A program made the translations under genes and the position numbers. A stretch of 38,541 nucleotides of DNA from an uncultured Alphaproteobacteria bacterium (GTDB lineage: Bacteria > Pseudomonadota > Alphaproteobacteria > Rhizobiales > Aestuariivirgaceae): the NCBI GenBank assembly GCA_937873445.1, contig CALMWF010000047.1:1-38541 (forward strand), written 5' to 3'. Within the stretch, counting starts at the first letter, position 1. Each line of letters begins with the position of its first letter. The notes beneath the pieces were generated by a model that was given only the letters and a program-made list of their open reading frames with translations, ran no database searches and had not been told where the DNA came from. This document shows positions 2,294-34,853 of this stretch, in pieces.

Positions 2294-3823
2294 GGGCGGC
2301 TTCGAGGTCACGTCATAGACCACCCGCGACACGCCCTTCACCTCATTGATGATGCGGGTGGCGGTGCGGCCCAGAAAGCCCATGTCAAAGGGATAGAAAT
2401 CCGCCGTCATGCCATCCACCGAAGTGACCGCACGCAGCGCCAGCACCCGGTCATAGGTGCGGCCATCGCCCATCACCCCCACCGTATGCACCGGCAGCAG
2501 CACGGCGAAGGCCTGCCAGATCGTGTCATAGAGTCCCGCCTTGCGGATTTCATCGAGATAGATGGCATCGGCCTTGCGCAGAATATCCAGCTTCTCGCGC
2601 GTCACCCCGCCCGGCAGGCGAATTGCCAGACCGGGTCCGGGGAACGGGTGGCGACCCACAAATTTATCAGGCAATCCAAGCTCTTGACCAAGCTTCCTCA
2701 CCTCGTCCTTGAACAGCTCGCGCAGCGGCTCCACCAGTTTCATGTGCATGCGTTCCGGCAGGCCGCCGACATTGTGGTGCGACTTGATGGTGACCGATGG
2801 CCCGCCTGAAAAGGACACGCTCTCGATCACATCCGGATACAGCGTGCCCTGGGCCAGAAACTCGGCCCCGCCCAGCGTCTTCGCCTCGCGCTCAAACACC
2901 TCGATGAACAGGCGGCCAATGGTCTTGCGCTTCTTCTCCGGGTCTTCCTCACCCTCCAGCGCGGCGATGAACTCATCCGCCGCGTCCACATGCACCAGCG
3001 CCATGTTGTAATGGTCGCGGAACATCTGCACCACATCCGCCGCCTCGTTGTGGCGCATCAGCCCATGGTCCACCAGCACGCAGGTGAGTTGATCGCCGAT
3101 GGCCTCATGGATCAGCACTGCCGCTACTGAGGAATCGACCCCGCCCGACAGCCCGCACAAAACCCGGCCCTTGCCCACCTGCTGGCGGATGCGGGCAATC
3201 GCCTCCTGCCGGAAGGAGGCCATGGTCCAGTCGCCCCTGCAGCCGGCAATCTTCATGACGAAGTTGCGCAGCAGATTGGCGCCGTCCGGCGTGTGCACCA
3301 CTTCCGGGTGGAACATGGTGGTGTAGATGCGGCGCGACTCGTCGCTGGCCACCGCGAAGGGGGCGTTCTCCGAGGTGGCCTTCACCGTGATGCCCTGGGG
3401 CATGCGGGTCACGCGGTCGCCGTGGCTCATCCACACGGGATAACGGCCGCCCACCTCCCACACGCCGTCAAACAGGGCGCTTTTTTCCTTCACCTCCACA
3501 TCGGCCCGGCCGAATTCCGCCGCATGGCCGCCCTCCACCGTGCCGCCCAGCTGCACCGCCGTGGTCTGCTGGCCATAGCAGATGGAAAGAATGGGAAGGC
3601 CAGAGTCAAACACCGCCTGGGGGGCGCGGGGGCTGCCGTCGCGCGTCACCGAATCCGGCCCGCCCGACAGAATGACCGCTTTGGGCTTCAGCGCCCGGAA
3701 GGCCTTATCGGCGCTTTGATAGGGAACGATCTCGGAATGCACCCCCATTTCGCGCACCCGGCGGGCAATGAGCTGGGTGACCTGGGAGCCGAAGTCGATG
3801 ATGAGAATGTGATCGTGCTGCAT
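2273..3823 (-). CDS. guaA: GMP synthase (glutamine-hydrolysing)
   Basis: Converts XMP to GMP using ATP and glutamine, the last step of guanine nucleotide synthesis in the cytosol. The 516-residue protein has the class I glutamine amidotransferase domain first, with nucleophile Cys82 (SICYGQ), His172 and Glu174 (FHPE). It then has the ATP pyrophosphatase domain with the PP-loop LSGGVDSS (225-232), and the dimerisation domain ending GTIEWE. Length is normal. It follows mntH on the same strand after 52 bp, so read-through is possible. Its 3' end borders the integrated element, so its original terminator may lie on the far side of that element; a T-run directly follows the stop codon but no hairpin does. 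Confidence 0.98.
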
Positions 3824-31000: not shown

Positions 31001-33058
31001 TCAATTGGCCTGCAGATCGGCCTTGCGCGCCGCCACCACCTGATCGGCGCTGCGGCCCGTCAGTTCGGCCAGATGGTCGTGCCGGAAGGTGAAGGTGCCA
31101 ACACCCGCCGTGGCCGAGCGCAGTTCCACGATCAGCGAGCCGATTTCCGACTCCGGCAGCAGGCCCTTGACCGTTTCCCAGCCCGGCCAGCCGGGCCGGG
31201 CATCAAAGCCCAGCAACTGGCCGCGATGGCCGGTGACGATCTGGTTGACGCGCGGCGTGGCGTCCGCCGGCACATGCACATCCACCGCCACGATGGGTTC
31301 CAGCAGCACCGACGAGCAGTTGACGAAGCCATCGTTCATGGCGATGCGCGCCGCCTGCTTGAAGGCCATTTCCGAGGAGTCGACATCGTGATAGCTGCCG
31401 TCCGACAGGTTGACCTGGAAGTCCACCACCTCGAAGCCCAGCGGCCCCTGCGACAGCCATTCGCGGATGCCGTTTTCCACCGCCGGAATATATTGCTTCG
31501 GCACCACGCCGCCGGTGATGGTGTCGGAGAACACAAAGCCCTCGCCCCGCGCCAGCGGCTGGATTTCCACCACAATGTCACCATACTGGCCGTGGCCGCC
31601 CGACTGCTTCTTGTGGCGGCCGCGGATCTGCGTGGCCTTGCGGATCGTCTCCTTGTAGCCGATGCGGCGCGGCCGCGACTGGGCATGCACGCCGTATTTG
31701 CCTTCGAGCTTCTCCAGCGCCACGCGCAGATGCATGTCGCCCTGGCCCCACAGCACCATTTCGCGCGTGCCGGCATTGTGCTCCAGCGACAGCGAGGGGT
31801 CTTCCTCAATGAGCTTGTGCACGGCGGTGGTCAGCTTCACCTCGTCCTTGCGGTCGGTCACCGAAATCGCCAGCCCATAGACCGGCGGCGGCGGCGCGGC
31901 TTCCACCAATTGCGCTGTGCTGCCCTTGCTGGTGGAGATGGTCTCGCCGGTTGCCATGTTGTCGAGGCGGCCCAGCGCCACCGTGTCACCCGCCGCGGCA
32001 GAGGCAATCTTGCGCGGCGTCTGGCCAAGCATGGAGAACACGCCTGCGGTGCGTGCCTCCTGGCCGGTCTTGCCATAGAACACGGCACCATCGGCCACGT
32101 CGCCCTGCAGGATGCGGGCCAGCGACAGCTTGCCGCCATGGGCGGTGTGCAGGCTCTTCAGGATCAGCGCCGTGGTGCCGCTGCCCTTGAGACCCAGCCG
32201 TTCCGCCAGCGCCGTCACATTGGGCGCCTCGTGGCGGATGGCCTTCAGCAGGCGGCCGATGCCATTGCCATGGGCCGCCGAACCGAACAGCACCGGGGTG
32301 ATCTGGCCGTCCGACATTTCCTTGGCCAGATCCTGAAACACCTTGTCCTTGGGCGGCTCGATGTCGCCCAGCAGCTGTTCCATCAACTCGTCATCGTGGT
32401 CGGCCAGCCGCTCCATCATGGAGAAGCGCTCGCTCTTTTCGCCCGCCGTCAGATCAGCGGGAATGTCCACCACCTGGCTGTCGGCATGTTCGCGGTAGAC
32501 AAAGGCGCGCTCCAGCGCCAGATCGACATAGCCCGACACCACGCCATTGTTCCAGATCGGGATCTGGCGCAGCACCAGCGGGGTTGACGAGGCGGGCTGC
32601 AGATATTGCAGCACGTCATGCGGCGACACCGTGGTCTTGTCGATCTTGTTGATGAAGATGAAGCGCGGCATGCCGATCTCATCAAGCTGCTTGAGGATCA
32701 GCTGCAGCGCCGGCACCTTCTTTTCATCGGCCTCGCACACCACCACGGCAGCGTCGCAGCCAGCCAGAGCGGCGCGCGCTTCCTCGGCGAATTCCACCGA
32801 GCCGGGGCAGTCGATGAAGGTGAATTTCTCGCCCATGAAATCGGTGGTGGCGGCGTTCAATTCCACGCTCATGCCGTGGGCCTTGGCTTCCGCACTGGCG
32901 TCACCGATCATGGACTTGTCGGTGGCCGTGCCCTGGCGGGGAATGGCGCCACTCCGGTGCAGAATGGCTTCCAGCAGCGTCGTCTTGCCGGAAAGATAGG
33001 GGCCCACGATGGCGATACACCGTGACCCCGTGGCTCGTCTTGCCTGTGCGTTACCCAT
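31001..33058 (-). CDS. Elongation factor G-like translational GTPase
   Basis: A 685-residue EF-G paralogue with the five-domain layout. The G1 loop GPYLSGKTT starts near residue 19, G3 is DCPGS (83-87) and G4 is NKID. Domain II/III follow, then domain IV (about 470-590, with KKQSGGHGQYGD) and domain V at the end. The G3 motif differs from EF-G's DTPGH: Ser87 stands where the catalytic His is expected. The switch I RGITI segment is replaced by HGMSVEL. It is therefore an EF-G-like protein, not the main FusA. ATG 33058 has AGGAGG 10 nt before it. The role in translation is uncertain. Confidence 0.88.
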   Translation of the reverse strand: MGNAQARRATGSRCIAIVGPYLSGKTTLLEAILHRSGAIPRQGTATDKSMIGDASAEAKAHGMSVELNAATTDFMGEKFTFIDCPGSVEFAEEARAALAGCDAAVVVCEADEKKVPALQLILKQLDEIGMPRFIFINKIDKTTVSPHDVLQYLQPASSTPLVLRQIPIWNNGVVSGYVDLALERAFVYREHADSQVVDIPADLTAGEKSERFSMMERLADHDDELMEQLLGDIEPPKDKVFQDLAKEMSDGQITPVLFGSAAHGNGIGRLLKAIRHEAPNVTALAERLGLKGSGTTALILKSLHTAHGGKLSLARILQGDVADGAVFYGKTGQEARTAGVFSMLGQTPRKIASAAAGDTVALGRLDNMATGETISTSKGSTAQLVEAAPPPPVYGLAISVTDRKDEVKLTTAVHKLIEEDPSLSLEHNAGTREMVLWGQGDMHLRVALEKLEGKYGVHAQSRPRRIGYKETIRKATQIRGRHKKQSGGHGQYGDIVVEIQPLARGEGFVFSDTITGGVVPKQYIPAVENGIREWLSQGPLGFEVVDFQVNLSDGSYHDVDSSEMAFKQAARIAMNDGFVNCSSVLLEPIVAVDVHVPADATPRVNQIVTGHRGQLLGFDARPGWPGWETVKGLLPESEIGSLIVELRSATAGVGTFTFRHDHLAELTGRSADQVVAARKADLQAN

Positions 33059-33364
33059 AATAACCGCTCCTCCTGGAACTGAACTGAAACTGTTCCGGGA
33101 TTGCCCTGTGCGGGGTTCTGGGCCCGCGACGTGGGCCATACCGTTAGGGCCATGCTTGCGCCGTTTCCGCCATTTGGCAAGGCCCGTTTCCGGGCAGTCT
33201 GCCGCAGGTGAAAGGGGCTGTCCGGCCTTGACAGGCCTCTCCTCCGGCGGGCGCCGATTCCGCTCAGACCGGCCTGCGTCCTGAGGGCTTAAAACCGCCG
33301 CTCTAACTTAAGAGCTGGCGAGCCGCCTTGAGACTTTGCCGATTCCGTCAAAGGTCGGCCTGCG
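33059..33364. other. Divergent intergenic region, left part
   Basis: No gene is supported. It holds the ribosome-binding site of the EF-G-like gene (AGGAGG about 33069-33074) and a TTGACA at 33228-33233 without a matching -10 on the plus strand. Short inverted repeats (GCTCT/AGAGC around 33300-33315) are visible but have no clear meaning. The hairpin elements begin at its right end. Confidence 0.4.
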
Positions 33365-33442
33365 CTAGTGTCGTGGTTCCGAAGTTCGCCTCCGGTCCCG
33401 ATATCGATGATGGCGCGAACTTCGGAACCGAAACGACACTAG
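33365..33442. repeat. Hairpin element 1 (78-bp imperfect palindrome)
   Basis: CTAGTGTCGT (33365-33374) pairs with ACGACACTAG (33433-33442), and GGTTCCGAAGTTCGC (33375-33389) with its exact complement (33415-33429). This gives 25 bp of perfect stem with a 3-nt GAA bulge on the right arm and a 25-nt loop containing GATATCG. The structure is far longer than a terminator and has no T-run. It resembles intergenic palindromic or MITE-like elements and is homologous to element 2, which lies 13 bp away. Confidence 0.85.
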
Positions 33443-33455
33443 AAACATTAAATTG

Positions 33456-33530
33456 CTCGTGTCCCTTTGATTCATAAATTCGCAATCGGGTGGATATCGG
33501 GAACGGGCGAATTTATGAATCGAACACGAG
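33456..33530. repeat. Hairpin element 2 (75-bp imperfect palindrome)
   Basis: CTCGTGT (33456-33462) pairs with ACACGAG (33524-33530), and GATTCATAAATTCGC (33469-33483) with its exact complement (33507-33521). The arms are separated by a small internal loop, and the 23-nt apical loop again contains GATATCG. The layout matches element 1, and where the inner stems differ both arms have changed together. It ends 9 bp before the start codon of the next gene. Confidence 0.85.
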
Positions 33531-33539
33531 TGTCCGTCC

Positions 33540-34853
33540 ATGGCAAGCCTTCAGTCCCAGATCTTCGACCTGATTCAGGAAAGCCAGTACTGGTCGAAGG
33601 ATGCCTTGCGCGCCTATCAGGAAAGCCAGCTCTCCCAGCTCATCGCCCACGCCCGCGCCACCGTTCCCTTCTACCGCCACCGCCTTGATGGCCTGTTCCG
33701 CAGCGACGGCAGCATCGACTGGTCGCGCTGGCATGATCTGCCCGTGCTGACCCGCAGCGATCTGCGTGATCATGGTGCGGAGCTGTGCACGTCGGCCCCG
33801 CCGCCCGGCCATGGCGAGATCCGCAACAGCATGACCTCCGGCTCCTCCGGCACACCCGTCCATCTCCGCCAGAACCTTCTGTTCCTTCAGGCCACCAATG
33901 TTGCCGGCCGCCGCTTTGCCCTGTGGGCGGGCATCACACCGGAGATGACCTTCGCCACCCTGGCCGCCTATTTTCCGCGCCATCTGGATGAAACCGTGAA
34001 CGTGCACGAATTGCCCGCCCAGAGCACGCTGCCGGGGCGCGGCCGCCGCCTGGTGGTCCGGCGCACCCTGCCGCCCGCCGCCCTGCTCGACCTGCTGGCG
34101 GCCGAGGGCGTTGAGGCGCTGGGCGGCAATGTCAACCTCATCGAGATCATGGCGCGGGAGAATGCCCGCCGTGCGCAACCAGTGCGGCTGGCAGCGGTGA
34201 TGTTCTACGGCGTGCAGGTGCACGAGGCCCAGATCCGCACCATCGCCAACAGTTTTGGCGCGCGCTGCTTCGACACCTACAGCGCCGAGGAAACCGGCCG
34301 CATCGCCAGTCAGTGCGCCCCCGGCTCCGCCTATCACATCAATGCCGAACAGATGCTGGTGGAGGTGGTGGACAGCAGCAACCGCAGCGTGGCCCCCGGA
34401 CAGGAGGGCCGCATTCTGGTGACGCCGTTTCTGCTCACCGCACAGCCGCTCATCCGCTATGAACTGGGCGACCTGGCGGTGGCGGGCGAAGCCTGCTCCT
34501 GTGGCCGCAGCCTGCCCACCATCGCCCGGCTGACGGGGCGGCAGGACCCGCTGTTTCTTGATGCCGGGGGCCGCGCCATCTTCCCGCATTTCGACCATGA
34601 ACTCATCATCGAGGCGTTGCACTGTCAGGCCTATCAGCTGGCCCAGACGGCGCCGCTGGCGGTGGAGGTGCGCTACATACCCGGCTCCACCGCCCCCGCC
34701 GCCCCTGGCCTTGCCGCCATCCGCGCCATGATCCTCAAGGTCATGCCGGAACAGACCACCGTGACCTTTATGGCCGTAGAGGGCCTGCCCGATCATACGG
34801 GCCGCAAGATCCAGCGCATCGTGCGCGAGTTCTCACCTGCCGGCACACAATGA
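33540..34853 (+). CDS. PaaK/CapK-like adenylate-forming enzyme
   Basis: A 437-residue member of the phenylacetate-CoA ligase/CapK family, which activates carboxylic acids with ATP. Visible are the phosphate loop TSGSSGTP (99-106), the acyl-adenylate motif YSAEETG (247-253), RYELGDLA (306-313) and the CSCGRSLP zinc-type motif (319-326). The N-terminal LIAHARATVPFYRHRL is typical. The substrate is unknown and no phenylacetate pathway genes adjoin. ATG 33540 lacks a clear ribosome-binding site; the nearest GAG (33528-33530) is in the stem of hairpin element 2. Confidence 0.85.
   Translation: MASLQSQIFDLIQESQYWSKDALRAYQESQLSQLIAHARATVPFYRHRLDGLFRSDGSIDWSRWHDLPVLTRSDLRDHGAELCTSAPPPGHGEIRNSMTSGSSGTPVHLRQNLLFLQATNVAGRRFALWAGITPEMTFATLAAYFPRHLDETVNVHELPAQSTLPGRGRRLVVRRTLPPAALLDLLAAEGVEALGGNVNLIEIMARENARRAQPVRLAAVMFYGVQVHEAQIRTIANSFGARCFDTYSAEETGRIASQCAPGSAYHINAEQMLVEVVDSSNRSVAPGQEGRILVTPFLLTAQPLIRYELGDLAVAGEACSCGRSLPTIARLTGRQDPLFLDAGGRAIFPHFDHELIIEALHCQAYQLAQTAPLAVEVRYIPGSTAPAAPGLAAIRAMILKVMPEQTTVTFMAVEGLPDHTGRKIQRIVREFSPAGTQ

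Follow-up and report, generated by a model that had tools for sequence, protein, structure and literature searches.

Two long imperfect palindromes in a 38,541-nt stretch of alphaproteobacterial DNA, which we call the window, proved to be the halves of one 166-bp unit. We consider this unit very likely to be non-autonomous mobile DNA, in which two inverted imperfect hairpin arms and the AT-rich linker between them move as one unit into the tetranucleotide CTAG. The unit lies at positions 33365 to 33530 on the plus strand and scores 126.4 bits (E = 4.1e-26) with a double-hairpin model, R1, that was built from 50 rows, the window copy among them. Arm A (33365-33442, plus strand) is a hairpin of 78 nt that was delimited by sequence and fold and scores 74.7 bits (E = 1.6e-16) with a single-hairpin model, R2. 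It consists of a mismatch-free outer stem of 10 bp (33365-33374 with 33433-33442), a 3-nt bulge (GAA, 33430-33432) on the linker-side strand and an inner stem of 15 bp (33375-33389 with 33415-33429) around a loop of 25 nt (33390-33414). The AT-rich linker, AAACATTAAATTG, spans 13 nt (33443-33455, plus strand). Arm B (33456-33530, plus strand) is a hairpin of 75 nt by sequence and fold (R2 56.7 bits on the minus strand), and alignment of arm A with the reversed arm B identified it as an inverted, diverged copy of arm A. Its inner stem again has 15 bp (33469-33483 with 33507-33521, loop of 23 nt at 33484-33506). An unpaired stretch lies on its linker-side strand, and its outer stem is partly decayed, with 7 bp followed by a mismatch. 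The region 33345-33550 folds at -89.4 kcal/mol compared with a mean of -61.2 for shuffled sequences (z = -6.65), and none of 200 shuffles folded as well.

A first-pass annotation of this DNA had described two palindromes of 78 and 75 nt lying 13 nt apart, and direct reading confirmed their coordinates as well as the 15-bp inner stems, the left arms ending in TTCGC and the presence of GATATCG in both loops. It had also noted that 11 of the 15 positions match between the inner left arms and that the right arms compensate for all four differences, which holds by eye. We agree that the hairpins are related, arm B aligning to arm A as an inverted copy, and that they are no terminator. The claim of two tandem elements, however, has to be replaced: nested copies reveal the two hairpins as the halves of a single unit of arm A, linker and inverted arm B.

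The same architecture was found across the family. When A arms were aligned with reversed B arms, B was an inverted and diverged A, and the larger bulge was on the linker side in both. In the locus L065 the order is A-linker-[A-linker-B]-B, and a similar order is present in L117; these nested copies indicate that the pair of arms moves together with its linker as one unit. Among 97 parses, of which a small number arose by chance in other phyla, the spacer measured 11-14 nt in 94 and exactly 13 nt in 60, and the element was 161-169 bp long in 92, the other five being 124-142 bp. The length was always 161-169 bp in the 88 copies that we rated as good. Outer and inner stems together amount to about 25 bp, and CTAG lies within the outer stem. 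A short-loop variant of about 117-133 nt was seen in L145 and in matches in the genomes G434 and G155, so that long loops seem dispensable. In some lineages (the window, L045, L112, L148) the loops of both arms contain GATATC or a near form. Many other lineages have GCNGC there, which gives the impression that the two loops change together. L117, from a Bradyrhizobium MAG, contains a cluster of arms with very different outer stems (CTAGAGCTCC, CTAGTGCCCA, CTAGTACCGC and CTAGTGGAGC), which suggests fast turnover of subfamilies.

We analyzed the insertion site using borders and empty sites. CTAG forms the left border in 84 and the right border in 77 of the 88 good copies. It is a rare sequence, found 156 times in 400 kb of G051, a relative with a 7.2-Mb genome, where 1369 were expected (about ninefold rarer), and 10 times in the window against 126 expected. 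The joined flanks of 12 insertions were compared with five genomes of genus g7, which returned 30 loci; 16 of these were aligned. Fourteen of the aligned loci span the junction and two do not. A single CTAG is kept exactly at the junction in five of the 14, which represent three of the 12 insertions (L024, L029 and L028; the clearest of the five loci, L193, at 95% identity); the remaining nine have other letters or gaps there, by divergence or indel. Together with the nested copies, these empty sites indicate that the whole unit moves and inserts at the rare tetranucleotide CTAG, which is afterwards present at both borders; duplication of TA and of CTAG are indistinguishable in these data. Adjacent copies with one CTAG in common were found in L137 and L172.

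Copies inside a coding frame, with both flanks in one frame, numbered one of 39 in G051 and three of 67 named loci, in a test based on codon usage and of low sensitivity. The corresponding counts were 109 of 400 for random positions and 20 of 125 for control CTAG sites. A preference for stop codons was rejected, as the TAG of a coding frame was used by 15 of 39 insertions and 31 of 112 control CTAG sites (p = 0.23).

The window copy lies between a gene for an elongation factor G-like protein (31001-33139, minus strand; Pfam EFG_IV at E = 8.3e-40 and others) and an open frame of 437 aa (33540-34853, plus strand) whose first ATG is 9 nt past the element and which has no Pfam match at E ≤ 0.001. 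Its left border CTAG (33365-33368) is common to a neighbouring repeat copy at 33291-33368, and its right border reads CGAG (33527-33530), which we take as a decayed CTAG. Among 36 genus relatives checked for this site only G014 has both flanks, and the element is missing from its syntenic locus; the sequence between the flanking genes has shortened and diverged there in other ways as well, so that it does not qualify as a clean empty site. We read the window copy as old and partly decayed, inserted next to a copy of a CIR-like repeat, a kind described below.

The pairing of the arms behaved differently between lineages and within a genome. Across 50 lineages, 97.6% of 2499 cells were paired and 323 changes were two-sided; no shuffle out of 500 reached this level, and sliding the partner reduced pairing to 26-41%. 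Without four unsure pairs, the remaining 46 stem pairs gave 2299 cells, of which 2259 are Watson-Crick, 14 G-T and 26 other. Keeping the four raises the G-T count to 47 of 2499, with 25 at one pair beside the arm B bulge that is probably no true pair. Judged by the counts for this family, the pattern with its few G-T pairs is probably DNA-like. Within G051, where 40 copies were found and the 38 with a score of at least 250 were counted over 59 pairs, we observed 63 changes confined to one arm, of which 20 produced G-T, versus two two-arm Watson-Crick changes and one two-arm unpaired change. Stems there change less than the rest of the element (0.015 versus 0.078 per site). As for the covarying pairs that the first-pass annotation had proposed to count in further copies, pairing is kept across the 50 lineages, and copies within one genome lose it. 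As the arms covary across lineages and decay one arm at a time within a genome, it is along the line of active copies that pairing is kept, probably at the DNA level, rather than in each resident copy. What renews it there would be either selection for mobility or copying between the arms while the element moves.

Two other explanations of the pairing were considered. Palindromes might be re-perfected by template switching in replication, which would create the covariation with no selection at all. Such arm-to-arm copying would leave few G-T intermediates, as seen, but it does not account for the 63 one-arm changes that stand uncorrected in G051 next to two two-arm changes, nor for the persistence of the bulge across lineages, and we regard it as unlikely. 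Arms may be corrected at transposition alone. Alternatively, the pairing could be selected in a transcript, as in a structured RNA or 5' leader. Three copies in the genome of the window, namely the window copy, L002 and the fused remnant L003, end 8-20 nt ahead of an ATG by eye, which would suit a leader; and Rfam matches below the gathering score fell on elements at two of 12 loci (SNORA53 and Ms_IGR-8 on L117, mir-276 on L065), which we read as chance. The two loci had six such matches in all, four lying on elements, and the other ten had no match at E ≤ 1. No element in the loci searched matched Rfam at the gathering score, and in the window Rfam returned only tRNA. The scarcity of G-T pairs (14 of 2299), the varying orientation of the element and the decay of resident copies without compensation all speak against an RNA, and we hold it very improbable as the cause of the pairing. 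Of the possibilities that the first-pass annotation had offered, a mobile repeat family with kept pairing was supported, while neither a structured RNA as the cause of the pairing nor a REP/RAYT-like element, discussed below, was.

That annotation had proposed a search for further copies, and the unit indeed recurs both in its own genome and in other Alphaproteobacteria. The assembly that contains the window (2.58 Mb, 47 contigs) has a second full double hairpin on contig C1, a remnant on C8 in which the left part of A is fused to the right part of B, and a single hairpin on C26; R1 gave four matches there, equal to two places with both strands counted. A pattern of linker and borders matched at least 119 stretches in named genomes, 75 of which a script parsed as complete double hairpins. 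These 75 are alphaproteobacterial by name except for four MAGs named "Proteobacteria" and one named "Marinimicrobia". Of the remaining 44, 16 are genuine copies that run into a contig end, have decayed or duplicate one in the count. The other 28 stem from records that carry no alphaproteobacterial name and served as a control; not one of them gave an R2 hairpin at E ≤ 0.01. In a survey of 385 sampled genomes of the class, R1 matched at least 21, its own included, a lower bound given strict filters and seven candidates scored per genome. With both strands counted, G051 has 86 R1 matches (about 43 places), Afipia massiliensis 141, and Bradyrhizobium sp. LHD-71, Hyphomicrobium sp. CS1BSMeth3 and a Bradyrhizobium MAG at least 150 each; the poorest two of eight named genomes have 13 and 14.

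Copies were also present on plasmids and in viral contigs. One of four long-family queries found nine plasmid records (four Roseibium, four Labrenzia and one Ochrobactrum), the other three found none, and queries with a shorter family described below gave no plasmid match. A full copy on a Roseibium plasmid (R1 154.6 bits, 2946-3112) shares its first four bases with the end of a gene that stops at 2949, and a full copy on a Labrenzia plasmid (143.8 bits) occupies the same site. Both lie between two convergent genes, and the border overlaps the stop codon of the upstream gene. The gene table, which covers protein genes only, has no feature annotated on the plasmid copy. Two of the 80 viral contigs searched (out of 120 stretches) carry real copies beside terminase-like genes, identified by eye, and next to these two copies we recognised no mobility gene.

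An autonomous form was sought with R2 over 103 sources, which yielded double hairpins, clusters and a small number of hairpins on their own. In the loci searched, no transposase gene lay between the arms of an element, and by eye none of the open frames of L117 and part of L144 was recognised as a transposase.

As mover of such hairpins, a Y1 transposase (RAYT, TnpA-REP) acting on single-stranded bulged hairpins would make the unit a REP/REPIN-like element. The unit shares with these an inverted pair of hairpins with a bulge in each, and according to excerpts of one study E. coli REPs are recognised by features that include a conserved bulge and a tetranucleotide (PMC8266576). With respect to replication, 26 of 40 in G051 point the same way (p = 0.08), a lean that varies with the position assigned to the origin. 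Setting the skew change at 3.2 Mb gives 22 of 40, and the fork directions used come from noisy GC skew and GGGNAGGG counts. REP stems, however, are given as 5-13 bp with unpaired GTAG/CGTC tags (PMC3733652, in excerpt), compared with about 25 bp and a tetranucleotide inside the outer stem here. The Y1 domain (PF01797) was detected in seven of 18 element-bearing genomes (four of ten and three of eight), one of the seven with an internal stop, and was missing from five of the eight named genomes, including Afipia massiliensis and Hyphomicrobium sp. CS1BSMeth3. The first-pass annotation had suggested looking for an associated transposase or RAYT gene; among the Y1 loci examined, none has the element on both sides, and the nearest copies are about 150 nt (L329) and 2.6 kb (G051) away. 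In L329, from genome G489, a double hairpin lies about 150 nt ahead of the Y1 match, which may be chance, copies being so many there. A REP/REPIN-like identity is on balance quite improbable.

The unit could instead be a MITE of the usual sort, belonging to a DDE insertion sequence that duplicates TA (IS630 or IS5/IS427), its arms being mere long terminal repeats and its hairpins without a role. IS711 of Brucella belongs to the IS5/IS427 type. It duplicates TA in YTAR and reportedly prefers the palindromic Bru-RS repeats (PMC2266754, in excerpt), and the movement of RUP is ascribed to IS630-Spn1, with TA as the target (PMC2229807, in excerpt). Insertion at TA/CTAG with duplication was observed for our unit too, and G051 contains six near-identical IS630-type copies at a like target, with CTAG on the left in five of six and on the right where shown (L229, L232, L234, L236, L238 and L240). 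The ends of this IS630, GAGCGTTTTC and GAAAATGCTC, are nevertheless unlike the element ends GTGTGC and GTGTCC; the IS630-type domain DDE_3 (PF13358) is present in four of ten and five of eight element-bearing genomes and missing in nine of the 18; and terminal repeats alone leave the pairing within each arm unexplained. An ordinary MITE is a real possibility, though one that we would not bet on. In the 18 genomes examined, neither Y1/RAYT nor IS630 consistently accompanies the element.

Among known repeats, the closest in description are the Caulobacter CcrM-associated intergenic repeats (CIR; Chen and Shapiro 2003, as cited in a review, PMC2229807). In excerpts of that review they have about 110 bp, two long inverted-repeat arms and a linker, TA termini and GANTC at or in one terminal loop, and their target duplication is given as unknown and their mobility as unresolved (PMC2229807). 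The long family resembles them as an alphaproteobacterial, multicopy, intergenic repeat of two linker-joined arms with TA at the termini. GANTC occurs in 81 of 88 long-family copies, at 2.43 per copy versus 0.63 expected; the G051 background holds 759 versus 1369 expected. Unlike CIR as excerpted, the long family measures about 166 bp, and among the 88 copies its GANTC is found 63 times in arm B and 54 times at the linker, but in the loops of only nine (A) and two (B). Since arms, linker, TA termini, location and GANTC are shared but length and GANTC loop are not, the long family looks like a long-armed, CTAG-targeting variant of the CIR kind and no proven member, a likeness drawn from the review's description.

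The neighbouring repeat in the window (33291-33368, plus strand) belongs, in degenerate form, to another double-hairpin family of shorter length, here called the second, and was detected by blastn with a by-eye consensus from G014 (77.5% over 80 nt, E = 3.6e-10). This family is about 107 bp long, ends in CTAGAGC and has several copies in G014 (L373-L377); the window copy ends at the shared CTAG. Four G014 copies that were delimited by hand and folded measure 107-109 nt and have GATTC in or at one loop. By our comparison the second family fits the description of CIR in the excerpted review (PMC2229807). Its linker and that of the long family gave a mean local score of 5.48, compared with a mean of 4.55 and a maximum of 4.80 for shuffles, and this likeness lends modest support to shared descent of the two families. 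A third double-hairpin family of about 117 bp by eye (CTAGCGCGGGAT...CGTGATCTAG) has many copies in G051 (L246, L355, L254, L344, L277) and in some loci there adjoins or nests in the main family; in L277 a copy is nested within the element, at its inner CTAG. A possible fourth family (L355, L025) starts with CTAGAGCGCTTCC and by eye has a hairpin with a linker-side bulge; a 57-bp part of it is multicopy in G047 and G055.

RIME of Rhizobium is likewise a palindromic alphaproteobacterial repeat and shorter than the long family, a likeness by description only. Bru-RS1 and Bru-RS2 of Brucella are, in excerpts, alphaproteobacterial palindromic repeats with an associated TA-duplicating IS but, set side by side by description, are shorter (103 and 106 bp; PMC2266754, PMC10800456). 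REP/REPIN-RAYT systems as excerpted share imperfect and in part bulged hairpin pairs, high copy number and patchiness (PMC3733652, PMC8266576), whereas the long family has ~25-bp stems and CTAG borders, and lacks an unpaired GTAG/CGTC tag and a consistent Y1 partner. RUP and IS630-type MITEs are similarly small and non-autonomous with a TA-containing target, but form one end-to-end stem rather than two separate arms (PMC2229807, in excerpt); in the loci examined no IS had ends matching the long family. Br-REP1 and Br-REP2 are multicopy intergenic palindromes of Bradyrhizobium and its kin, whose consensuses as printed in excerpts of the source are by eye unlike the long family (PMC5082802). Br-REP2 is said to lie in a larger element (PMC5082802, in excerpt), the sequence of which was outside the comparison. 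Among the papers listed by literature searches of incomplete coverage, with most subscription papers outside them, we recognised no description of the long-armed element or its class, a result that does not prove it undescribed.

We favor mobile DNA whose two arms and linker move as one unit into CTAG. The element inserts at CTAG and leaves CTAG, or at least TA, on both borders. Its arms, folded or as palindromes, would be handled by an enzyme supplied in trans, so that spread would be limited to copies whose arms match, and the linker-side bulge in both arms may mark orientation. We infer recognition of folded DNA from the covariation alone. Candidate enzymes would be a TA-duplicating DDE transposase of the IS5/IS427 or IS630 type or a hairpin-specific nuclease of unfamiliar type. 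Going further, CIR-like repeats, the long family and the other double-hairpin families might form one alphaproteobacterial superfamily that shares architecture (CTAG borders, two inverted arms each with a linker-side bulge, an AT-rich linker) rather than sequence. An as yet undescribed enzyme that recognises DNA in its folded state would mobilise them, and arm sequences could then drift freely provided that pairing is kept. This is a speculative proposal, which we hold to be possible rather than probable.

The element is abundant in familiar genera such as Bradyrhizobium, Nitrobacter, Afipia and Hyphomicrobium, and no Rfam entry matched it at the gathering score. Target duplication and mobility, which the excerpted CIR review leaves open (PMC2229807), are answered for this relative by empty sites and nesting, with CTAG as the target. 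The paired evolution between lineages versus the unpaired decay in one genome makes the need for hairpins in movement directly testable.
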